A stretch of 64,000 nucleotides of DNA. Origin: Roseivirga misakiensis. GTDB lineage: Bacteria > Bacteroidota > Bacteroidia > Cytophagales > Cyclobacteriaceae. Of the stretch, positions 10,789-37,816 are shown in pieces; position 1 is the stretch's first letter; every line of letters starts with the position of its first letter. The notes beneath the pieces were generated by a model. It was given only the letters and a program-made list of their open reading frames with translations, did no database searches and was not told the origin of the DNA. Location of the stretch: assembly GCF_001747105.1 (NCBI RefSeq), contig NZ_MDGQ01000004.1, positions 186,001-250,000 on the forward strand, given 5' to 3'. A program made the translations under genes and the position numbers.

Positions 10789-10799
10789 ATGTTACCTAT

Positions 10800-10814
10800 C
10801 AAACGATTGCATAA
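10800..10814 (+). promoter_or_regulatory. LacI-type operator candidate upstream of pfkA
   Basis: The dyad CAAACGATTG (10800-10809) with its central CG and flank CATAA matches the site upstream of the ROK kinase over 14 identical bases (AAACGATTGCATAA), and one strand of it (TGCAATCGTTTGAT) differs by one base from the site upstream of the GH31 gene. It lies about 50 bases upstream of the pfkA -7 box. That position, upstream of the -33 region, fits activation better than blocking. Confidence 0.6.
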
Positions 10815-10855
10815 CAATCAAAGAAACAATCAGACGCACTTCAGATTCAAAACCT

Positions 10856-10863
10856 TAAATTTG
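10856..10863 (+). promoter_or_regulatory. -7 box TAAATTTG (pfkA promoter)
   Basis: An exact TAnnTTTG match 19 bases before the pfkA start codon, so the expected leader is only about 10-15 bases. No convincing -33 TTG is visible. Confidence 0.55.
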
Positions 10864-10882
10864 ATTAATTACTCAACTGACT

Positions 10883-11866
10883 ATGGCTTCGACTATCAAG
10901 AGAATCGGCGTTTTAACTTCCGGAGGTGATGCCCCAGGCATGAATGCAGCGGTAAGAGCTGTTGTAAGAGCCTGTATCTATTATGACATCGAAGTTTTTG
11001 GTGTTTATAAGGGTTATGATGGCTTGATAAATGCCAATATCAAGCAACTCTATGTGCGTTCGGTGTCCAATATTCTAAGCAGAGGTGGTACCTTTTTATT
11101 GACCGCAAGAAGCGAGGAATTCCGTACGAAAGAGGGCCGCGAAAAAGCTTACGAAAACTTTAAGAAATTCGATTTAGATGCCTTAGTCGTGATTGGTGGC
11201 GATGGTTCTTTTACTGGAGCCAACATATTCAGCCAAGAGTTTGACGTTCCTGTGATCGGCATTCCTGGAACTATTGACAATGATTTAGCAGGTACAGATT
11301 TTACCATTGGCTTCGATACGGCTTGTAATACGGCTCGTGAGGCTATCGATAAAATTAGAGATACAGCATCTTCTCATGAGCGCCTTTTCTTTGTAGAAGT
11401 TATGGGCAGAGATGCGGGTTTTATTGCTGTTAACTCCGCTATTGGTGGTGGTGCAGTGGCAATGGTCGTCCCTGAACACAACTGGACAATTGATGCGCTG
11501 ATCAAGCGATTAAGAAAAGGGGCTGCCAATAAAAAAGCATCCAACGTTGTGGTCATTGCCGAAGGCTGCCAATTGGGCAATGCCTACGAAGTGGCCGATG
11601 CAGTTAAAAAGGAGTTGGGCTATTTTGATATCAGAGTAACCGTATTAGGCCACTTACAAAGAGGCGGCTCGCCTACCACTATGGACAGAGTACTAGCCAG
11701 TAGGCTCGGTGTTGCTGCGGTTGAAGGACTCCGACATGGAGAATCTAAAGTAATGGTGGGTATGATAAACAATGAAATTGCCTATACCCCAATCGGTCAA
11801 GCGATAAAAACAGAAAAACGCCTCGGTGCCGAGGAATTTAGAATCGCTAAGATTCTATCGATATAA
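10883..11866 (+). CDS. pfkA: ATP-dependent 6-phosphofructokinase
   Basis: 327 residues, the bacterial PfkA length. It phosphorylates fructose 6-phosphate to fructose 1,6-bisphosphate, the committed step of glycolysis. Motifs: GGDAPGMNAAVR (14-25, ATP site), GGDGSFTGA (phosphate loop; Gly after GDGS favours ATP use), PGTIDNDL with the catalytic Asp (near 128), and MGRDAGF. It is convergent with fbaA across a shared terminator, placing two successive glycolytic steps side by side. It is preceded by a LacI-type operator candidate. Confidence 0.97.
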   Translation: MASTIKRIGVLTSGGDAPGMNAAVRAVVRACIYYDIEVFGVYKGYDGLINANIKQLYVRSVSNILSRGGTFLLTARSEEFRTKEGREKAYENFKKFDLDALVVIGGDGSFTGANIFSQEFDVPVIGIPGTIDNDLAGTDFTIGFDTACNTAREAIDKIRDTASSHERLFFVEVMGRDAGFIAVNSAIGGGAVAMVVPEHNWTIDALIKRLRKGAANKKASNVVVIAEGCQLGNAYEVADAVKKELGYFDIRVTVLGHLQRGGSPTTMDRVLASRLGVAAVEGLRHGESKVMVGMINNEIAYTPIGQAIKTEKRLGAEEFRIAKILSI

Positions 11867-11868
11867 AA

Positions 11869-11890
11869 AAAGGAGGCCAAAGCCTCCTTT
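11869..11890. terminator. Bidirectional terminator between pfkA and fbaA
   Basis: The inverted repeat AAAGGAGGC / GCCTCCTTT with a 4-base loop is flanked by A-rich sequence on one side and T-rich on the other, so it can end transcription of both convergent genes. Confidence 0.88.
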
Positions 11891-11912
11891 CTATTTTAAA
11901 ATCTGATTGATC

Positions 11913-12977
11913 TTAATTTCTGTTCATAGCATTCAATTCCTCAAATGCCTGTTCCAATCTTTTCACGATACTTTCTTCGCCTTTTCTTAACCAAACTCTC
12001 GGATCGTAATACTTCTTGTTTGGTGCATCTTCGCTTTCAGGGTTACCGATCTGTGCTTGAAGGTAGCCCTTCTTGTCGTTGTAATAAGCATGAATACCAT
12101 CCCAACAAGCCCACTGAATATCGGTATCGATATTCATCTTAATAGAACCATAAGAAGTAGCTTCAGCAATCTTTTCTGGTTCAGAACCAGACCCACCGTG
12201 GAATACAAAGAATACTGGCTTTTCTTCCGTACCAAATTTTTCCTGAATGTAAACCTGCGAATCTTTTAGAATTGATGGCCTTAGTTCTACATTTCCTGGC
12301 TTGTAAACCCCGTGAACATTACCAAAAGAGGCAGCAACAGTAAAGATATCTCCTACTTGTCTCAAAGCATCCCATGCTTGAGCTACTTCCTCTGGCTGAG
12401 TATACAGTCTGTCAGAATCTACATCAGTATTGTCTACACCATCTTCTTCACCACCAGTAATTCCAAGCTCAATTTCGATACCCATTTCCATGGCATTCAT
12501 TCGCTTAAAGTACTCACAGCTTATTTCAATATTTTCTTCTAGGGTCTCTTCAGAAAGGTCGAGCATATGTGTACTAAACAAAGGCTGACCGTTCTTTTTG
12601 TAAAAAGCTTCACCCGCATCGAGCAAACCGTCAATCCATGGAAGTAATTTTTTGGCTGCATGATCGGTATGTAAGATTACTGGAACACCATAATGTTCAG
12701 CCATTTGATGTACATGCATGGCGCCTGAAATAGCACCTTGAATAGAGGCATTATAATCTGTATTATCCAACGACTTCCCAGCGTAAAAAGCAGCTCCACT
12801 TACCGAAAACTGAATCATTACTGGCGAATTCACCTTTTTTGCCACTTCCAATACCGAGTTAATGGTATTAGTACCAATCACATTGATTGCTGGCATTGCA
12901 AATTCGTTTTCCTTAGCGTAGTTGAGGCAGTCTTTAAGCTCTTGACCATAAAGTACACCGCTTCTGAATTTTCCCAT
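11913..12977 (-). CDS. fbaA: Fructose-bisphosphate aldolase, class II
   Basis: 354 residues from the ATG at 12977 (MGKFRSGVLYG); the frame extends 27 codons further up, but that stretch is Cys/Arg-rich and unlike the family. Class II aldolases cleave fructose 1,6-bisphosphate to DHAP and glyceraldehyde 3-phosphate using Zn2+. Visible: VILHTDHAAKKLLPW with metal/catalytic His and Asp (near 105-112), EIELGITGGEEDGVDN, and the phosphate loop FVFHGGSGS. It belongs to the E. coli FbaA-like subclass. Transcribed toward pfkA. Confidence 0.97.
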   Translation of the reverse strand: MGKFRSGVLYGQELKDCLNYAKENEFAMPAINVIGTNTINSVLEVAKKVNSPVMIQFSVSGAAFYAGKSLDNTDYNASIQGAISGAMHVHQMAEHYGVPVILHTDHAAKKLLPWIDGLLDAGEAFYKKNGQPLFSTHMLDLSEETLEENIEISCEYFKRMNAMEMGIEIELGITGGEEDGVDNTDVDSDRLYTQPEEVAQAWDALRQVGDIFTVAASFGNVHGVYKPGNVELRPSILKDSQVYIQEKFGTEEKPVFFVFHGGSGSEPEKIAEATSYGSIKMNIDTDIQWACWDGIHAYYNDKKGYLQAQIGNPESEDAPNKKYYDPRVWLRKGEESIVKRLEQAFEELNAMNRN

Positions 12978-13078
12978 GTTATATCTAGTGTTTGAGATTC
13001 TAATTTGTTTGCAAAGAAAAGAAAATTTCCGTTTCCAAAATATAGCGTAGCAATGCAATTACCGAAGGGCCTAAAACA

Positions 13079-13106
13079 TGTATAGCGCAACGAGTTGCGC
13101 TATACA
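13079..13106. repeat. Perfect 13-bp inverted repeat with 2-base spacer
   Basis: TGTATAGCGCAAC, then GA, then GTTGCGCTATACA: a 28-base perfect dyad about 100 bases upstream of the fbaA start. No T-run follows, so it is not a normal terminator, and a 2-base loop is too tight for an RNA hairpin without opening base pairs. A dimeric repressor/activator site or a cruciform-prone element is more likely. Confidence 0.85.
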
Positions 13107-13272
13107 TTAAGTAAACTATAATAGAAATGGAGGAAATTACTGACAACAACTGAAATAGGGCTGATGATTTTAAGAACAAAAGCCTATTTGTACTTGTTGA
13201 CTGAATGAAAGTAGTGATTTAAAAAATAATTATCAATCTAAGTGCCTTAGCACCAGTATACTACGCCAATAT

Positions 13273-13286
13273 TGCAATCGATTGAA
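13273..13286. promoter_or_regulatory. LacI-type operator candidate (autoregulatory)
   Basis: TGCAATCGATTGAA with the perfect palindrome CAATCGATTG at 13275-13284, about 130 bases upstream of the LacI-family gene. It shares TGCAAWCGWTTG with the sites at pfkA and GH31. The likely role is autoregulation by the LacI-family protein. Confidence 0.5.
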
Positions 13287-13411
13287 ACAGCCAATACTCT
13301 CGATATGGGTATAAAAAATAATTTTTAAAATATTTTGTAAATCATGGCATAGTCAAAAGATATGGGCATATTTAAAATCAGTTTCAATAGATTATTCCAG
13401 AGGCAGCAATC

Positions 13412-14437
13412 ATGAAAAGTGGGCAGGTAACGATCAAGGATATAGCGAAGGAATTGAACATTTCATGTTCGACAGTTTCAAGAGCTTTAAAGGATTTTCC
13501 CGGCATCAGCCCTACCACGCGTAAATCGGTCGTTGAACTAGCCAAAAAGTATAATTATCGCCCAAATGCGATTGCCCTAAGCCTAAGAAATCAAAAAACC
13601 AACGTCATCGGCGTGGTAATTCCTGAAACCGTCCATTTTTTCTTTTCAACAGTCATTAGCGGTATAGAAGATGCGGCCATGAAAGAAGGGTATAATGTGA
13701 TGATATGCCAGTCTAACGAAAAGTACGAAAGAGAAGCAGACAGCATAGACGCATTAATGGGCGCCAGAGTAGATGGTCTTCTAGTTTCTATTTCCAGAGA
13801 AACGGCTGATTTAGCCCATTTGAAGAAAGTAGTTGACGAAGGAACACCGATGGTATTTTTCGATCGGTTAGTAGAAGGAATGAATGCATCGAGCGTAATT
13901 GTGGACGATTACCAAGGTGCCTATGACGCTGTAGAACATTTGATCAAACAAGGTTGCAAGCATATTGTACACCTATCTGGTCCTGATAATCTTATCATCG
14001 CTAGAAAAAGAAAAGAGGGATATCTTTCTGCCCTAGAAGATTACCAAATCCCTTTCACGGAAGAATACATAGTAGAGTGCCGCAATGGGTCTGAAATTGA
14101 AGCAGAAAAGGCCATGTCAGATTTGCTCAAGAGTAGTATTAAGATCGATGGCGTATTTGCCAACAATGATTTAGCAGGATTGGGCGCCATTAGTGCGGTA
14201 AAAAAGGCAGGAAAATCAATTCCGAAAGACATTGCCATAGTCGGTTTTAGCAACTGGCAATTTTCTTCATTGATCAACCCAGGACTTTCTAGTATTTCTC
14301 AACCAGGCTATGAAATGGGCTGTGAAGCTGCCAAGCTAATTTTAGAAGAAATTAACGCGAAAGAAAAGGGCAAAAGTCAGATCAAAATCCTTGATACTGA
14401 GCTAATCGTGCGAGATTCATCCAAGCGCTTACATTAA
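13412..14437 (+). CDS. LacI-family transcriptional regulator
   Basis: 341 residues. The N-terminal HTH (TIKDIAKELNISCSTVSRAL, about 7-26) and hinge helix (NYRPNAIALSLR, about 49-60) are classical, followed by a periplasmic-binding-protein-like effector domain (IGVVIPE..., VDGLLVS, DNDLAG-like NNDLAGLGA). It lies directly before the GH31-GH13-MFS genes and so most likely senses a sugar such as maltose, glucose or a sugar phosphate. The candidate operator CAAWCGWTTG is found upstream of itself, the GH31 gene, pfkA and the ROK kinase. Confidence 0.95.
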   Translation: MKSGQVTIKDIAKELNISCSTVSRALKDFPGISPTTRKSVVELAKKYNYRPNAIALSLRNQKTNVIGVVIPETVHFFFSTVISGIEDAAMKEGYNVMICQSNEKYEREADSIDALMGARVDGLLVSISRETADLAHLKKVVDEGTPMVFFDRLVEGMNASSVIVDDYQGAYDAVEHLIKQGCKHIVHLSGPDNLIIARKRKEGYLSALEDYQIPFTEEYIVECRNGSEIEAEKAMSDLLKSSIKIDGVFANNDLAGLGAISAVKKAGKSIPKDIAIVGFSNWQFSSLINPGLSSISQPGYEMGCEAAKLILEEINAKEKGKSQIKILDTELIVRDSSKRLH

Positions 14438-14451
14438 TTCCAGAAATATCT

Positions 14452-14480
14452 TTTGCATTGCAAACGTTTGATTTGCATTG
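14452..14480 (+). promoter_or_regulatory. LacI-type operator flanked by direct repeats, upstream of GH31
   Basis: The perfect palindrome CAAACGTTTG (14461-14470) sits between two copies of TTTGCATTG (14452-14460 and 14472-14480) that are exactly 20 bases apart. The centre differs by one base from the pfkA site on its reverse strand. It lies about 130 bases upstream of the GH31 start and just after the LacI gene. Confidence 0.65.
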
Positions 14481-14597: not shown

Positions 14598-17003
14598 ATG
14601 AACTTCAAGAACGAATCCATCAGTGCCATAACTGAGCTATCGGTAAAAGAAAATATAGCAAGCGGAAAAGCAGGCAAATACAGCTTCAAACTCACAGCTT
14701 ACACCCCGAAAATCATACGCGTACAAGTATCGAAATATGAGGTTTTCGAAGAGTATCCTTTTTCGGTAGTTCTTGAGCCACAGCAACCAGCGGTTAAAAC
14801 GACTGAAAATGAATCCCACCTAGATTTTAACACTGAACATATTCACGCAAAAGTTCAAAAGAACCCTTTCAGACTAAGCTTTTATAATAATTCTGGTGAT
14901 TTACTCAATGCAGATGATCCAAGTTTTGGTGTGAGTTGGTTAGGGGAAGAAGTCACAAACTACAAAGCCCTTGCTTCTGACGAAATATTTCTCGGTATGG
15001 GTGAAAAAGGCGGGGGATTGAATCGAAGAGGTTCGTCTTTTGACAATTGGAACTCCGACGCCTTTGGGTTTAATAATGACACCGACCCACTTTATGTTTC
15101 TACTCCTTTTTTCATTGGCGTAAGAGAAGGAAAACCGTATGGAATATTTCTGGACAATACGCACAAATCACACTTCAATTTTGGTACATCAAACAATGAT
15201 CGTTTTAGCTACTTCAGCGCCGAAAGTGGTGATTTAAATTATTATTTCATTCAAGGCGATCACGTAAATGAAGTCATTACAGAGTATACAAAGCTGACAG
15301 GTGCCATGCATATGCCGCCCAAATGGAGCCTTGGTTTTCAGCAATGTAGATACAGCTATTATCCCGATCATGAAGTCTACAACGTAGCCGATACATTTAG
15401 AGAAAAGCAGATTCCTGCTGATGTGATCTACCTAGATATACACTACATGAAGGACTATATGGCCTTCACTTTTGACAATGAAAGGTTTCCAAACCCAAAG
15501 GCACTCATTGATAAACTGACTTCACAAGGTTTTAAAGTAGTTGTCATTTTAGATCCAGGAATCGCTACTAAAAAAGGCTATGGTACATACGATCGTGGAG
15601 TCGAAAAAGACGTCTTTATCAAATACCCAGATGGAACACCATTTGAGGCAAGCGTTTGGCCTGGAAATAGCCACTTTACAGATTTTACTTCGAAAAAAGG
15701 TAGAGACTGGTGGGCAGACGAATTGAAGTTCTATACTGATCTAGGATTAGAAGGCTTTTGGAATGACATGAACGAACCAGCTTGTTGGGGTCAAGACATT
15801 CCTAACATGATCGAGTTCGATTATGACGGTCAGGAAGTGAGCCATAAGAAAGCGAGGAATGTTTACGGCTTTCAAATGGTAAGAGCGACTTTCGAAGGCG
15901 CCAAAAAACACATCGGCAACAAGCGACCTTTCACGCTAACACGGTCAGGTTTTTCGGGCGTTCAACGCTACTCAGCCGTCTGGACGGGCGACAATGTTGC
16001 CGGAGATGACCATATGCTACTTGGCGTAAGACTCGTCAATAGTTTGGGAATGGCCGGCGTGCCTGTAGCTGGCTATGACGTAGGTGGATTTGTAGACGAA
16101 AGCAGTCCGCAATTATTTGCCCGATGGCTTGCCGTAGCTACTTTTGCCCCATTCTTTAGGGTGCACAGCATGGTCAATGTAAGAGACTCAGAACCTTGGG
16201 CCTATGGCGAAGAGGTGGAAGAAATTGCTAGAAATTACATCAACCTTAGGTATAAAATGATGCCATACCTTTATAGTTTGTTCTTTAAGGCGCATCAAAA
16301 TGGCACACCTATAAACAAATCACTCGCGGTAGATTATACCAATGATCATGAGATTTACCATGGAAATGCACAGAACGAATTCACACTGGGCGACTGGTTA
16401 TTAGTTTGCCCAACGACAACCACGCAAGAATATGCCAAAATTTATATTCCTGAAGGTAATTGGTATCGGTTTTTCACCGACGAAGTAGTAGCTGGTGGTC
16501 AGCATTATGTGGTTGAAACGAGCATGGAAGATTTGCCAGTTTACGCGAAAGAAGGAGCCATTATACCTTTGCAAAACGTGGTACAAAACACCAAAGAAGT
16601 GCATGATGGGGAATTAAAGTTGCACGTCTACTTCGGTCATGTAAAAAGCAGCCAGAATTATTTTGAAGACGACGGTGAAACTTACGCTTTTGAAGATGGC
16701 AATTATTACAAACGAGATATCAACTTCGATGGCGAGCAAAATTCGCTGGTTCTAGATGATAAAGAAGGAGCCTTTACCTCTACCTTCAAAAACCTGAAGG
16801 TTTACTTGCATGGGTTTGAAGCGACCGAATTTGAAATCAATGGAGTAGCTGCTTCATTGCAGCAAGAAGATATTAGATTGATCGATCCAATCACTGAATT
16901 TGATCCACTTCCTCAACGAGATAAAAAGGATTACCTGATCCGAGGAGTCAAATTCTTAACAACAGAATTTATAGATTCAGAAATTAGAATAAAATGGAGT
17001 TAA
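14598..17003 (+). CDS. GH31 alpha-glucosidase
   Basis: 801 residues with no signal peptide, so likely cytoplasmic. GH31 enzymes release glucose from the non-reducing end of maltose and oligosaccharides. Domains: N-terminal beta-sandwich (1-230), TIM barrel (about 240-590) and C-terminal beta domains. The nucleophile Asp is in GFWNDMNEP (near 392), the acid/base Asp in WTGDN (near 460); the substrate-binding QCRYSYYP, VIYLDIHYM and RVHSM blocks are present. Its stop codon overlaps the frame of the next gene. It is likely co-transcribed with GH13 and MFS under LacI-family control. Confidence 0.95.
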   Translation: MNFKNESISAITELSVKENIASGKAGKYSFKLTAYTPKIIRVQVSKYEVFEEYPFSVVLEPQQPAVKTTENESHLDFNTEHIHAKVQKNPFRLSFYNNSGDLLNADDPSFGVSWLGEEVTNYKALASDEIFLGMGEKGGGLNRRGSSFDNWNSDAFGFNNDTDPLYVSTPFFIGVREGKPYGIFLDNTHKSHFNFGTSNNDRFSYFSAESGDLNYYFIQGDHVNEVITEYTKLTGAMHMPPKWSLGFQQCRYSYYPDHEVYNVADTFREKQIPADVIYLDIHYMKDYMAFTFDNERFPNPKALIDKLTSQGFKVVVILDPGIATKKGYGTYDRGVEKDVFIKYPDGTPFEASVWPGNSHFTDFTSKKGRDWWADELKFYTDLGLEGFWNDMNEPACWGQDIPNMIEFDYDGQEVSHKKARNVYGFQMVRATFEGAKKHIGNKRPFTLTRSGFSGVQRYSAVWTGDNVAGDDHMLLGVRLVNSLGMAGVPVAGYDVGGFVDESSPQLFARWLAVATFAPFFRVHSMVNVRDSEPWAYGEEVEEIARNYINLRYKMMPYLYSLFFKAHQNGTPINKSLAVDYTNDHEIYHGNAQNEFTLGDWLLVCPTTTTQEYAKIYIPEGNWYRFFTDEVVAGGQHYVVETSMEDLPVYAKEGAIIPLQNVVQNTKEVHDGELKLHVYFGHVKSSQNYFEDDGETYAFEDGNYYKRDINFDGEQNSLVLDDKEGAFTSTFKNLKVYLHGFEATEFEINGVAASLQQEDIRLIDPITEFDPLPQRDKKDYLIRGVKFLTTEFIDSEIRIKWS

Positions 17004-17005
17004 AC

Positions 17006-18370
17006 ATGAAAATGAAAAACTACTTGGCTTTAGGGCTACTAAGCCTTTTTCTTTTTTCCTGTGGTAGCGAGAAAAAAGAACCTGTTGAAGAGGTTGCTAA
17101 AATCGCCAGCAACGTAAAACACCCGGAATGGAGTAAAGATGCTGTGATCTATGAGGTAAATATTCGCCAGCATACACAAGAAGGCACTTTCAATGCATTC
17201 GCAAAAGACATTCCTCGGTTAAAGAAAATGGGTATAGACATTCTTTGGTTGATGCCGATCCACCCAATTGGTGAAAAGAATAGAAAAGGAACCGAAGGTA
17301 GCTACTATGCTGTGAAAGATTATAAGGCCATTAATCCAGCTTTTGGAACGGAGGAGGACTTTAGGAATTTGGTAAAAACGGCGCATGATAATGGGATGAA
17401 AGTCTTAATTGATTGGGTAGCCAATCACACGGCTTGGGACCATGTTTGGACTGAGACAAATCCTGAGTTCTATACTAAAAATGAAGCAGGTGAATTTATG
17501 CCACCTGTAGAGGACTGGGAAGACGTAATTGATCTAGATTACTCTAATAATGAATTGAGAGCCGCCATGACCGATGCCCTGAAATACTGGGTGGCAGAAT
17601 TCGATATTGATGGTTACCGATGCGATGTAGCTGGTATGGTGCCTACTGACTTTTGGAATGGCATAAGGCAACAACTCGATGAAATTAAACCCGTCTTTAT
17701 GCTCGCCGAAGGTGAAGAAACCGAGCTGCATGTCGATGCGTTTGACATGACCTATTCGTGGGAATTAATGCACCTTATGCGCAAAGTAGCTGCTGGTGAA
17801 GAAGATTTACAGGCCATAAAAGATATGTATGCGCGAGACTTTGCGCGCTACCCTGAAGGCTATTACAAAATGAACATAATCACCAATCATGACGAAAATA
17901 GTTGGAATGGTACGGCTGAAGAATTCTTCGGAGAAGCACAAGAGGCTTGGTTCATTTTTGCAGCGACCACTTACGGTATGCCTCTGGTTTATTCTGGCCA
18001 AGAGGCGAATAATACAAAACGGCTTAAATTCTTCGAAAAAGACCCAATCGATTGGTCTGGGGGCTACAAATTCAGTTCTATTTATACCGCGCTTTTCAAT
18101 GGAAAAACTCGAAATCCGGCACTTTGGAATGGCGATTTCGGTGGCACGCTAGAATGGGTAAAAACTACAGCTGATGATAAGATTCTTGCCTTTAAAAGAG
18201 TAAAAGGAGATAGAATGGTGCTCTCAATCATCAACTTCAGCGATGAAAAAGTAGAATTTGAAATAGATCAAGAATATCTGGCTATGCAGCGAATCTTTGG
18301 CGGTGGTGCAATTACAGTGACTAAGGAACAAGTGATAGCCCCTTACCGATACAAAGTCTACACTAAATAA
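17006..18370 (+). CDS. GH13 alpha-amylase family lipoprotein
   Basis: About 454 residues with a lipoprotein signal (LGLLSLFLFSCGSEKK), so attached to a membrane, probably exposed to the periplasm or surface. The GH13 barrel is clear: DWVANHT (region I), DGYRCDVAGM with the nucleophile Asp (II), MLAEGEE with the acid/base Glu (III) and TNHDENSW with the third Asp (IV). The likely substrates are starch or malto-oligosaccharides. I chose the ATG at 17006 because GGAG stands 6 bases before it; an ATG at 16994 overlaps the GH31 stop and is an alternative. It feeds sugars to the downstream transporter. Confidence 0.93.
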   Translation: MKMKNYLALGLLSLFLFSCGSEKKEPVEEVAKIASNVKHPEWSKDAVIYEVNIRQHTQEGTFNAFAKDIPRLKKMGIDILWLMPIHPIGEKNRKGTEGSYYAVKDYKAINPAFGTEEDFRNLVKTAHDNGMKVLIDWVANHTAWDHVWTETNPEFYTKNEAGEFMPPVEDWEDVIDLDYSNNELRAAMTDALKYWVAEFDIDGYRCDVAGMVPTDFWNGIRQQLDEIKPVFMLAEGEETELHVDAFDMTYSWELMHLMRKVAAGEEDLQAIKDMYARDFARYPEGYYKMNIITNHDENSWNGTAEEFFGEAQEAWFIFAATTYGMPLVYSGQEANNTKRLKFFEKDPIDWSGGYKFSSIYTALFNGKTRNPALWNGDFGGTLEWVKTTADDKILAFKRVKGDRMVLSIINFSDEKVEFEIDQEYLAMQRIFGGGAITVTKEQVIAPYRYKVYTK

Positions 18371-18376
18371 ATCCAT

Positions 18377-19861
18377 ATGAATAAGAAGCCTCGTCTTAGT
18401 TTTTTACAAATCTGGAACATGAGTTTCGGATTTCTGGGTATACAAATGGGCTTTGCACTGCAAAATGCCAATACCTCCAGAATATTTGAAACCTTAGGTG
18501 CAGACACCGAAAACTTGGCTGTTTATTGGCTCGCAGCCCCCATTACTGGGTTAATTATGCAGCCAATTATCGGTTATTATTCTGATCGGACTTGGAGCCC
18601 CAAATGGGGAAGACGACGGCCTTACTTTGCCTTTGGAGCAATTGCAGCCACTATAGCCCTATTTCTAATGCCTAACTCTCATACATTATGGATGGCAGTT
18701 GGTGTTTTATGGATAATGGATGCCTCCATCAACGTTACTATGGAGCCTTTTCGTGCTTTTGTTGGTGACTTACTTCCCGACGAGCAACGGACTTCTGGTT
18801 TTGCCATGCAAAGCTTTTTTATTGGTATTGGTGCTTTAGTGGCCTCTTTCATGCCTTGGATTTTTACCAACTGGTTTAACATTCCAAATACCGATCCCGA
18901 CGGCGGGATTCCTCCTTCAGTCAAGTATGCTTTTTATGTTGGTGGTATTATGTACCTGATCACGGTACTATGGACGGTTTTCACCACAAAAGAGTACCCA
19001 CCGGAAGAAGATGAGCACCACGATGTACCCGCAATGGATGCTAGCGAAGAAGGAACTTATGTTGCCAAATTCAATCGCGTGGGTTTAATTCTTCTCAGTA
19101 TTGGTATCGCATTTTCGCTTTTCGTCTACTTCATGGAAATCGATGTGAAACTCCACATCCTAGGCGGTGGCTTTGCCTTCTTTGGATTAATTCATTTGTT
19201 GGGCAGTCGATTGGTTCATGTAAAGAAAACCTCCACAGCGCTCGTACATATTGTCAAAGACTTTAACTCAATGCCAAATACTATGATTCAATTGGCAGTT
19301 GTTCAGTTCTTTTCATGGTTTGCCCTATTTTCAATGTGGATTTTCTGTACGCCAGCTGTCACCTCGCACATTTATGGAACTACAGATACAGCTAGTGCAG
19401 CCTATAATGAGGGGGCCAATATGGTCAGCAACCTTTTTGGTGGCTATAATGGAATTGCCGCTATCGCTGCCATTTTTATTCCTCTAATTGCTAGGAAAAC
19501 GAGTCGAAAAATGACCCATCTCATTGCGCTTTGTTGTGGGGGAATTGGTCTAATTTCAATTTATTTCATTTCAGAACCCCAAATGCTATGGCTCAGTATG
19601 ATTGGCGTGGGAATAGCTTGGGCCAGTATCCTTTCCGTACCATATGCCATCCTGTCTGGAGCACTTCCGTCTGATAAAATGGGTTACTACATGGGTGTTT
19701 TTAACTTTTTTGTGGTGATACCACAAATTGTAGCAGCGTCATTGTTAGGCTTCATTTTAAATACTTTTCTAGGTGGTCAAACAGTATTAATACTAGTAGT
19801 AGGTGGGGTATCTATGATATTGTCAGGATTCTTAACACTTCGAGTAAAAGACACACAATAG
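18377..19861 (+). CDS. MFS sugar transporter (SLC45/GPH-like)
   Basis: 494 residues and about twelve membrane helices. The N-terminal half (FLGIQMGFALQNANTSRIFETLG, then SDRTWSPKWGRRRPY) matches the sucrose/maltose:H+ symporters of the SLC45/GPH type, with the MFS signature D-R-x-x-x-x-x-G-R-R-R-P between helices 2 and 3. It starts 6 bases after the GH13 gene and is ended by a terminator, so it closes the operon. Its role is most likely import of maltose or maltodextrin across the inner membrane. Confidence 0.93.
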   Translation: MNKKPRLSFLQIWNMSFGFLGIQMGFALQNANTSRIFETLGADTENLAVYWLAAPITGLIMQPIIGYYSDRTWSPKWGRRRPYFAFGAIAATIALFLMPNSHTLWMAVGVLWIMDASINVTMEPFRAFVGDLLPDEQRTSGFAMQSFFIGIGALVASFMPWIFTNWFNIPNTDPDGGIPPSVKYAFYVGGIMYLITVLWTVFTTKEYPPEEDEHHDVPAMDASEEGTYVAKFNRVGLILLSIGIAFSLFVYFMEIDVKLHILGGGFAFFGLIHLLGSRLVHVKKTSTALVHIVKDFNSMPNTMIQLAVVQFFSWFALFSMWIFCTPAVTSHIYGTTDTASAAYNEGANMVSNLFGGYNGIAAIAAIFIPLIARKTSRKMTHLIALCCGGIGLISIYFISEPQMLWLSMIGVGIAWASILSVPYAILSGALPSDKMGYYMGVFNFFVVIPQIVAASLLGFILNTFLGGQTVLILVVGGVSMILSGFLTLRVKDTQ

Positions 19862-28551: not shown

Positions 28552-28672
28552 AACATCTTATCCTTCTATCAGTTAAACACTTAGTCAATTAATAAGTAAA
28601 GTGATCAATAGGAAGCTGTATTAACTGAAATTGAAATCGTTTGTATAGTAGATAATTAGATAAAAAAATACT

Positions 28673-36664: not shown

Positions 36665-37663
36665 CTAAATGGCACGTGCCTGTTGTGGCACTTGAATTGC
36701 CCCATTTTGCACAATTTCGCTCCAAACAAGCGCACTTGCACCTAAAACGGCTGCATTTCTATCCATTAATTCTGACAAGCGAATGTTAATCTTACCCTTA
36801 TAGCCAGGATAAAGATATTCGTTGAAAGATTTCATTGTAGGTTTTACCAAAATATCTCCTGCTTTTGCCAAGCCGCCAAAAAGGAATATAGCTTCTGGGC
36901 TTGTCACTGCTGCTGCGTCTGCGAGTTTTAATCCAAGAATATCTGAAGTGTACTCATAAGCCTCCAGTGCGATAGGATCGCCCGCCAGTGCCATTTCAGT
37001 AATCTTTTTTGCCGTAAGCGATTCATAGGTATAAGAACGTAGCGGCGTTTCATCGTTATTGGTAGCCAAGAGTTTAAAGACAGTTCTTTTGATACCCGAA
37101 GCGGAAGCATAAGTCTCCAAACATCCACGTTTACCGCAGTTACATTCTCTACCATCAGGGTAAACGTTGGTATGCCCAAGTTCTCCTGCTAACCCATCGT
37201 GGCCATAAATAAGCTTTCCTCTAGTCACAAGTCCAGACCCTAAGCCTGTTCCTAAAGTCACGACTATAAAGTCGTTCAAATCCTTCGCCCCTCCGAAAAC
37301 TTTTTCACCAATAGCCGCAGCATTCGCATCGTTTGTCAAGACCATCGGTAAATCATAATAGGCCTTGAACATATCGATAAATGGCACTATACCCTTCCAA
37401 TTTAGGTTAGGTGCATGTTCGATCGTCCCTTTATAGTAATTACCGTTTGGTGCACCGATACCGATACCCAAAATTTCGAAAGATTCGTGAACTTGATTCA
37501 GACCATCGTTGATGGCCGTGCTCAAAGCGTCTAAAAAAGGTTTGATTTCTAAATGGGTATAGGTCGGTATGGAGCCTTCCATTAAGACGTTTCCGTCAAC
37601 GTCGCTCAAACCAAATTTGGTGAACGTTCCTCCTATATCTATACCAATTGCTGTTTCCCTCAT
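36665..37663 (-). CDS. ROK family kinase, probable glucokinase
   Basis: 332 residues. ATP motif IGIDIGGTFTKFG (6-18), catalytic TNDAN with Asp112, GTGLGSG (138-144), and the ROK zinc motif GHDGLAGELGH...CNCGKRGCLE (Cys 174, 176 and 181, His164). With glucose-handling Glu161-His164 present, glucokinase is most likely; fructose or N-acetylmannosamine are alternatives. A LacI-type operator candidate lies about 140 bases upstream and matches the pfkA site, linking it to the maltose/glycolysis block. Confidence 0.92.
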   Translation of the reverse strand: MRETAIGIDIGGTFTKFGLSDVDGNVLMEGSIPTYTHLEIKPFLDALSTAINDGLNQVHESFEILGIGIGAPNGNYYKGTIEHAPNLNWKGIVPFIDMFKAYYDLPMVLTNDANAAAIGEKVFGGAKDLNDFIVVTLGTGLGSGLVTRGKLIYGHDGLAGELGHTNVYPDGRECNCGKRGCLETYASASGIKRTVFKLLATNNDETPLRSYTYESLTAKKITEMALAGDPIALEAYEYTSDILGLKLADAAAVTSPEAIFLFGGLAKAGDILVKPTMKSFNEYLYPGYKGKINIRLSELMDRNAAVLGASALVWSEIVQNGAIQVPQQARAI

Positions 37664-37800
37664 GGCTCTTTTTGTCGGGATCAGATATTTCTAACTCCTA
37701 ATTACTAGCCTAAAAACGTATTAAAGGGTCATTTTTAGGCAACTAGAACGAATATCCACAATCTGTAGCCATAAACTCTTACAAGGGTTTCAATATCTCT

Positions 37801-37816
37801 GTAAACGATTGCATAA
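37801..37816 (-). promoter_or_regulatory. LacI-type operator candidate upstream of the ROK kinase
   Basis: AAACGATTGCATAA at 37803-37816 is identical over 14 bases to the site at 10801-10814 upstream of pfkA. It sits in a 279-base gap whose other content is the TonB-gene terminator. Confidence 0.6.

Follow-up and report, generated by a model that had tools for sequence, protein, structure and literature searches.

A candidate LacI-family operator joining alpha-glucan genes to central carbon metabolism in Roseivirga

Whether alpha-glucan breakdown and central glycolysis are placed under common transcriptional control is the question raised by a 64,000-nucleotide stretch of the Roseivirga misakiensis genome (NZ_MDGQ01000004.1, positions 186,001 to 250,000; hereafter, the window), in which similar short palindromes precede pfkA, a gene for a LacI-family regulator (LacI-1), a GH31-led alpha-glucan operon, and a ROK-family kinase gene. 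To our knowledge, the coordination of polysaccharide and central metabolism in non-gut Bacteroidota is poorly known. A sequence-only reading of this DNA had proposed that a single LacI-type regulator controls both processes through one operator family and activates pfkA. Our comparative analysis indicates that the 14-base palindrome TGCAAWCGWTTGCA is probably the operator of a LacI-type carbon-metabolism regulon in Roseivirga, similar in kind to those of CcpA and Cra, and that it would be read by LacI-1 and most likely by a second paralogue, LacI-2. The proposed link among the alpha-glucan genes, the regulator gene, the glucokinase-like gene, and pfkA was borne out by sites that are intergenic, conserved among relatives and, in the case of pfkA, missing where LacI genes are missing.

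The three 10-base cores previously described, namely, CAAACGATTG before pfkA (10800-10809), CAATCGATTG before lacI-1 (13275-13284), and CAAACGTTTG before the GH31 gene (14461-14470), were all found in place, and on matching strands each read TGCAAWCGWTTG. The fourth copy, before the ROK gene, was also present (TGCAATCGTTTA, 37802-37813, minus strand, one mismatch). Sites were scored as the number of matches out of 14 to TGCAAWCGWTTGCA, with the reversed pattern as a control. By this measure, the operator-like sites were TGCAATCGTTTGAT before pfkA (10798..10811, minus strand; 12/14), TGCAATCGATTGAA between fba and lacI-1 (13273..13286, plus strand; 13/14), TGCAAACGTTTGAT between lacI-1 and GH31 (14459..14472, plus strand; 12/14), and TGCAATCGTTTACA before the ROK gene (37800..37813, minus strand; 13/14). 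A fifth, weaker site, absent from the earlier reading, was located 65 bp upstream of the glutamate dehydrogenase gene gdhA (TGAAATCGTTTGTA, 28632..28645, plus strand; 12/14). All five window matches of at least 12/14 were intergenic, that is, outside ATG-initiated open reading frames (ORFs) of at least 100 aa, a fixed rule that leaves approximately 8.6% of the window, and the reversed control gave 0 matches.

Shorter or looser patterns yielded a far less distinct picture, which lends some weight to the explanation that the sites are products of chance or base composition. The 10-base core with one mismatch matched the window 15 times, where shuffled sequences averaged 9.79 (9 of 100 shuffles reached 15), and the 12-mer, when as many as two mismatches were tolerated, gave 25 against 22.93 in shuffles. 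Two exact 10-base cores also sit within window genes (18045 and 49141). The use of the 14-base palindrome instead of the shorter core made the window signal much cleaner, and across the whole 4.45-Mb genome, the exact 12-mer TGCAAWCGWTTG produced 17 strand hits against 0 for the control. These hits represented 15 distinct places, 12 of which were intergenic (binomial p ~5e-11). Given these counts, exact control counts of 0-1 per strand throughout the 19 Roseivirga genomes of our genus sample (the genome holding the window, G000, included), and footprints across relatives at pfkA, glgP, lacI-1, and the ROK gene, a chance origin is scarcely credible, even though the icd and gdhA sites were not conserved and the excess of one-mismatch matches did not depend on LacI.

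A census of PF00356 matches in the 19 genomes revealed no LacI gene in G003, G005, G011, and G014. LacI-2 alone was found in G006, LacI-2 together with another LacI gene, without LacI-1, in G010, and LacI-1 alone in G004; the remaining 12 genomes had both LacI-1 and LacI-2, the latter as only a fragment in the incomplete G017. In a tree built from the pfkA and icd proteins, the LacI-less G003, G005, and G014 grouped with G006, which has LacI-2, and G011 grouped with G004, which has LacI-1 (support 100 and 98); the LacI-less genomes are two lineages. Exact strand hits numbered 8-25 in the 15 LacI-bearing genomes and 1-7 in the 4 LacI-less ones, as counts uncorrected for genome size, which varies across the sample. 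The genic and intergenic split was taken for exact sites in 10 of the 19 genomes. Six LacI-bearing genomes with every exact site fetched (G000, G001, G004, G006, G010, and G018) had 66 of 78 places intergenic, and the four LacI-less genomes had 5 of 14 (Fisher p 0.0003); G002, with sites partly fetched, and eight genomes with none fetched were left out.

Within the 300 bp upstream of pfkA scanned in each of the 19 genomes, a site of 12-14/14 was located 65-73 bp before the ATG in all 15 LacI-bearing congeners, R. misakiensis included. The same site was missing in all four LacI-less genomes, where the best scores were 8-11 and fell elsewhere; the reversed control reached 9-10 in all 19. As the LacI-less genomes come from two lineages, the absence of the pfkA site accompanies the absence of LacI in two lineages, and these regulator-less congeners constitute a natural experiment in which the pfkA operator is lacking in both. 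Conservation extended to the alpha-glucan locus. Of the 12 other Roseivirga genomes with LacI-1, 11 had a 13/14 site before lacI-1 and G008 had a weaker one; in 11 of them (not in G002) and in G019, which belongs to another genus, the gap between lacI-1 and GH31 carried a 12-13/14 site. The glgP gene was preceded by a site of 11-13/14, 71-87 bp before the ATG, in all 13 genomes that have the gene (control, 9-11), and the ROK gene by a site of 12-13/14 in all 5 relatives in which the gene start was located, among 8 stretches fetched. A search over the 19 genomes did not find glgP in six congeners, all four LacI-less ones among them; the loss of glycogen use and the loss of the regulator may go together.

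Which protein reads the operator was approached through the same distribution. The pfkA sites of G006 and G010, which lack LacI-1, rule out a motif read by LacI-1 only, and the pfkA site of G004, which has LacI-1 alone, weakens the idea of a motif read by LacI-2 only. The recognition helices of the two paralogues, SCSTVSRAL and SPSTVSRAL, differ at one position (C or P), and in the simplest reading, both would bind the same operator, like AraQ and MalR1 of Bifidobacterium (PMC6882875). The proposal of one regulator acting alone was not sustained, in view of the two LacI genes, the retention of the pfkA site in G006, G010, and G004, and the presence of the pckA site in genomes without any LacI. 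An alternative division of labor, in which LacI-1 acts locally on the alpha-glucan genes (lacI-1, GH31, SusC-like, and GH13) and LacI-2, with a similar motif, owns the pfkA, glgP, ROK, and pckA sites, draws on the position of LacI-1 next to the glucan operon, on the sites before lacI-1 and GH31, and on the pfkA and other sites kept in G006 and G010. We consider it unlikely, since G004, without LacI-2, has a 14/14 pfkA site together with pckA, lacI, and GH31 sites, and since the LacI-2 gene of R. misakiensis has no site nearby. This last observation, made within locus L031, also weighs against our own reading that both paralogues share the operator. In G006, a 12/14 match was seen upstream of LacI-2, at a distance of approximately 550 bp, but it falls within an ORF that may not be real (L055).

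A difficulty for control by LacI proteins is posed by pckA. A site of 12-14/14, located 23-28 bp before the ATG, was found in 17 of the 18 genomes with pckA (not in G008), all 4 LacI-less genomes included, although the reversed control at pckA itself reached 12/14 in 7 of the 18. The pattern at pfkA fits a dependence of the site on the regulator, and that at pckA does not. Moreover, the LacI-less G014 has exact sites at pckA, at the alanine dehydrogenase gene ald, and at the formate-tetrahydrofolate ligase gene fhs (L080, L081, and L082) without a pfkA site, and with one mismatch allowed, R. misakiensis gave 90 matches against 39 in the control, closely resembled by the LacI-less G011 with 79 against 36. 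This resemblance means that one-mismatch counts do not track LacI and that the reversed control is imperfect; such counts were useless for discriminating LacI-bearing from LacI-less genomes. The sites retained in LacI-less genomes at pckA, ald, and fhs may reflect either another reader for some of them or another constraint. These retained sites and the one-mismatch excess of G011, as large as that of R. misakiensis, could be taken to suggest that the reader of the motif is a regulator of some other family and that the association with LacI is incidental. However, this would leave unexplained why the pfkA site is missing from precisely those four genomes, of two lineages, that lack LacI, and why exact places are scarce there, 9 of 14 being genic. 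A palindrome with a central CG is known for LacI-family operators; the Roseivirga motif has this form, and a TGCAAWCGWTTGCA-like palindrome adjoins lacI-1 on its upstream side. We hold an incidental association to be quite improbable, and a non-LacI protein of this kind could coexist with control by the LacI proteins.

The position of the sites relative to the core promoter offered an indication of the direction of control. The relevant part of PMC6847099 gives the -7 box of Bacteroidota promoters as TANNTTTG, starting at position -12. Spacing was expressed as the distance from the site centre to the first base of this box, with G or A accepted as the last base. For pfkA in the window, the predicted box, based on the sequence and the spacing table, is TAAATTTG (10856..10863, plus strand), with the site centre 51 bp before it. 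The pfkA spacing was 51-52 bp in 13 of the 15 LacI-bearing genomes and 50-52 bp in 14 of 15 when G006 was counted, with boxes ending in A in G010 and, for the 50-bp box, in G006. At glgP, it was 51 bp in 11 of 13 genomes and 49 and 52 bp in the remaining two (three boxes end in A), and at pdhC, the pyruvate dehydrogenase E2 gene, it was 72-73 bp in 7 of 8 genomes and 69 bp in G006. As TAnnTTTG occurs at only 0.17% of intergenic positions per strand, a common spacing is unlikely to be due to chance. The nearly fixed distance at pfkA agrees with the activation that had been suggested for this site. The pfkA and glgP sites are predicted to occupy an activator position, with the centre near -63.5 and that of pdhC two helical turns further upstream. 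CRP class I activators act from upstream positions such as those at pfkA, glgP, and pdhC. Activation by CcpA from upstream of the -35 region is discussed in the corresponding section of PMC6882875.

A different geometry was observed at other genes. The box starts 13 or 30 bp before the site centre at pckA in 12 of 14 genomes, and it follows the centre by 18-19 bp at ald (5/5), by 17 bp at the serine dehydratase gene (2/2), and by 7 bp at a conserved microprotein gene (5/5). These sites, overlapping or adjoining the core promoter, are predicted to be repressor positions. Taken together, the site geometry predicts that glycolysis and glycogen breakdown are activated, and gluconeogenic and amino-acid genes repressed. 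Several observations do not fit neatly into this scheme: the exact pfkA box of G006 lies at 36 bp, with an inexact one only at 50 bp; that of G004 lies at 63 bp; an extra box occurs at 40-45 bp in 4 of 8 pdhC promoters; and in many site-gene pairs, an exact -7 box is absent. At GH31, only 3 of 13 loci showed a 50-bp spacing, including one inexact case, and the locus in the window could not be anchored, so that GH31 may be either activated or repressed.

The range of genes preceded by sites was wider than anticipated. The proposed coupling of alpha-glucan breakdown and glycolysis was supported, and its scope proved too narrow, as glgP, pdhC, pckA, ald, sdaA, SusC-like, GH13, and other genes also carry sites. 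Further exact sites in R. misakiensis precede genes that we take to be glgP, sdhC, an arginase gene, and pdhC, along with serine dehydratase/hemE, a SusC-like TonB-dependent receptor gene, a sodium:solute symporter gene, and a microprotein gene; Pfam supports the serine dehydratase, receptor, and symporter assignments. In relatives, exact sites precede the SusC-like, GH13, alanine dehydrogenase, pckA, acetyl-CoA synthetase, and formate-tetrahydrofolate ligase genes, with Pfam support for GH13, alanine dehydrogenase, acetyl-CoA synthetase, and formate-tetrahydrofolate ligase. Conserved sites thus occur at genes of several central pathways (pfkA in 15 of 19 genomes, glgP in 13 of 13, ROK in 5 of 5 found, pckA in 17 of 18, and pdhC in 8 of 19). 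The low count at pdhC, where the G006 site lacks the central CG, weighs against a uniform regulon, as do three candidates that did not hold. The site before icd was not retained, with scores of 10 or less in 16 of the 18 other genomes and 11 at a similar distance in two; the gdhA site was kept in 1 of 7 relatives and is probably not a core member; and the site assigned to pgi falls in the first codons of yraN, so that pgi is not a clean target. In relatives, therefore, the pfkA, glgP, lacI-1, GH31, and ROK sites were conserved, and those at icd and gdhA were not.

The microprotein, approximately 50 aa long and conserved, with a HQRVSVRDIIENHYRK-like end, is preceded by a 14/14 palindrome (L009 1501-1745 in R. 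misakiensis, at G000:C4:120677; also L066, L100, L116, and L152), and the Pfam scan of the R. misakiensis protein gave no match.

On this basis, we envisage that when sugar is available, the regulator bound approximately 63 bp before the transcription start site would activate pfkA and glgP, and that at pdhC, it would activate from about two helical turns further upstream. The same operator would repress pckA and the alanine dehydrogenase, serine dehydratase, and conserved microprotein genes. GH31, GH13, the SusC-like receptor, lacI-1, and the ROK kinase would belong to the same regulon, whether activated or repressed. The periplasmic-binding-protein-like domain probably takes a sugar or a sugar phosphate as its effector.

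LacI-1 itself matches the LacI helix-turn-helix family PF00356 with 44 bits (cut-off, 27), and PF00532 and PF13377 are also above their cut-offs. CcpA proteins were its closest solved relatives in a phmmer search against the PDB, and most of its nearest named relatives were Roseivirga records. Equivalog models did not support a direct equivalence: LacI-1 scored 197.3 bits against the CcpA model TIGR01481 (cut-off, 442.35), 134.9 bits against the Cra/FruR model NF008452 (cut-off, 385), and 223, 196, and 208 bits against the CytR, PurR, and RbsR models (cut-offs, 436, 501, and 382). At the residues that we take to be the HPr-Ser-P contacts of CcpA (Y89, Y295, and R303), LacI-1 has E92, Y300, and K308, respectively, so that the first and the last differ and Y295 is kept, the last two positions being read from the alignment.

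Comparison with known systems places the Roseivirga operator in a broader context. The cre element of CcpA is a palindrome with a central CG, resembling the Roseivirga motif. In addition to its structural kinship with LacI-1, CcpA of Firmicutes exerts dual control with activation from upstream sites, as the pertinent passages of PMC6882875 describe, and the sign of control predicted for Roseivirga is similar. It differs in that LacI-1 falls under the CcpA equivalog cut-off with two of the three presumed HPr-Ser-P contacts changed, and in that it operates in another phylum with another sigma factor. Cra/FruR of Enterobacteria is likewise a LacI-family global regulator of central carbon genes, according to the part of PMC4052901 devoted to it, but it represses glycolytic genes and activates gluconeogenesis, whereas the Roseivirga geometry suggests the reverse. 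Two LacI-type regulators of Bifidobacterium breve, AraQ and MalR1, have overlapping targets in starch-like sugar use and central metabolism; the sections of PMC6882875 that concern them deduce activation for the central genes and repression for those of uptake; they belong to Actinobacteria, and we liken them by description, not by orthology. PckR, GapR, and GluR of Alphaproteobacteria, presented in the corresponding part of PMC4052901 as global LacI-type central-carbon regulators predicted by comparative genomics, come from other lineages and are likened by description, not by orthology or motif. Within the same phylum, SusR and the Crp-family BT4338 of Bacteroides control starch use and multiple sugars, but they belong to other protein families, and the Bacteroides LacI regulators listed in the relevant part of PMC3878776, which also covers SusR and BT4338, are local ones for hexuronates and mannuronate. 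LacI-type proteins with global control over central carbon metabolism have been established or predicted for Firmicutes, Gammaproteobacteria, and Alphaproteobacteria (in the portion of PMC4052901 on this subject) and for Bifidobacterium (in that of PMC6882875). Our searches of open-access literature showed no LacI regulon of central metabolism in Bacteroidota, Roseivirga and Cytophagales included, an absence that in itself carries little weight. If confirmed, a LacI regulon that extends from glucan breakdown and a glucokinase-like gene to glycolysis and gluconeogenesis would close the gap in what is known of such coordination in non-gut Bacteroidota, and the Bacteroidota -7 box, with its nearly fixed spacing of 51 bp from the site, would supply a testable activation rule for an unusual sigma factor.

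The phylogenetic reach of the pfkA wiring appeared to be limited. Outside the genus, the pfkA site was not found in the same place in any of the 18 outgroup upstream regions scored (20 stretches fetched), which weighs against the proposed regulon: 17 of the 18 had best scores of 8-11, including 11 at 60 bp in G024, and G021 had 13 at 286 bp from a doubtful start codon. A common origin of this wiring across the order is thus unsupported. Beyond the genus, the pfkA site was not found in place, and G019 retains both the lacI site and the lacI-GH31 site; this pattern points to a local regulator of glucan genes that came to cover glycolysis within Roseivirga. A more far-reaching scenario, which we regard as possible and offer tentatively, is that a local LacI regulator of alpha-glucan genes gave rise, within Bacteroidota, to a global carbon switch of the CcpA/Cra type. 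Two LacI paralogues would then act through a common operator, with activation of glycolysis and glycogen breakdown from approximately -63 and repression of gluconeogenesis and amino-acid catabolism. A third reader, independent of LacI, would recognize the palindrome at pckA, ald, and fhs, and species shedding the glucan genes would have lost the regulators and the activator sites while keeping the sites at repressor positions. In G010 (L164), fba lies directly next to an M28-peptidase-like gene, as though the lacI-GH31-GH13-transporter block between the two had dropped out, and the fba-side operator is retained.

The genes surrounding the sites were assigned as follows. The 327-aa product of pfkA (10883..11866, plus strand) is an ATP-dependent 6-phosphofructokinase (TIGR02482, 430 bits; cut-off, 371). 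The alpha-glucan operon begins with the gene for a GH31 alpha-glucosidase-like enzyme (14598..17003, plus strand; PF01055, 391 bits), followed on the same strand by a GH13 alpha-amylase family enzyme (16994..18370; PF00128) and an MFS transporter, probably for sugar (18377..19861; PF07690, with GPH_sucrose at 112 bits, far under its cut-off of 511). The ROK-family glucokinase-like kinase gene (36665..37663, minus strand; PF00480) scored 241 bits against TIGR00744, slightly below the cut-off of 260. The 341-aa LacI-1 is encoded at 13412..14437 on the plus strand, with PF00356 and Peripla_BP domains. The class II fructose-bisphosphate aldolase gene fba (11913..12977, minus strand; NF006628, 542 bits; cut-off, 297), with a start codon picked from the sequence, is divergent from lacI-1, and their common intergenic region holds the site approximately 300 bp from the fba ATG. 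Between this site and lacI-1, at 13300-13360 of the window, lies an A/T-rich stretch with a AAAATATTTTG-like motif, and similar AAAAATTTTG stretches are present in congeners.

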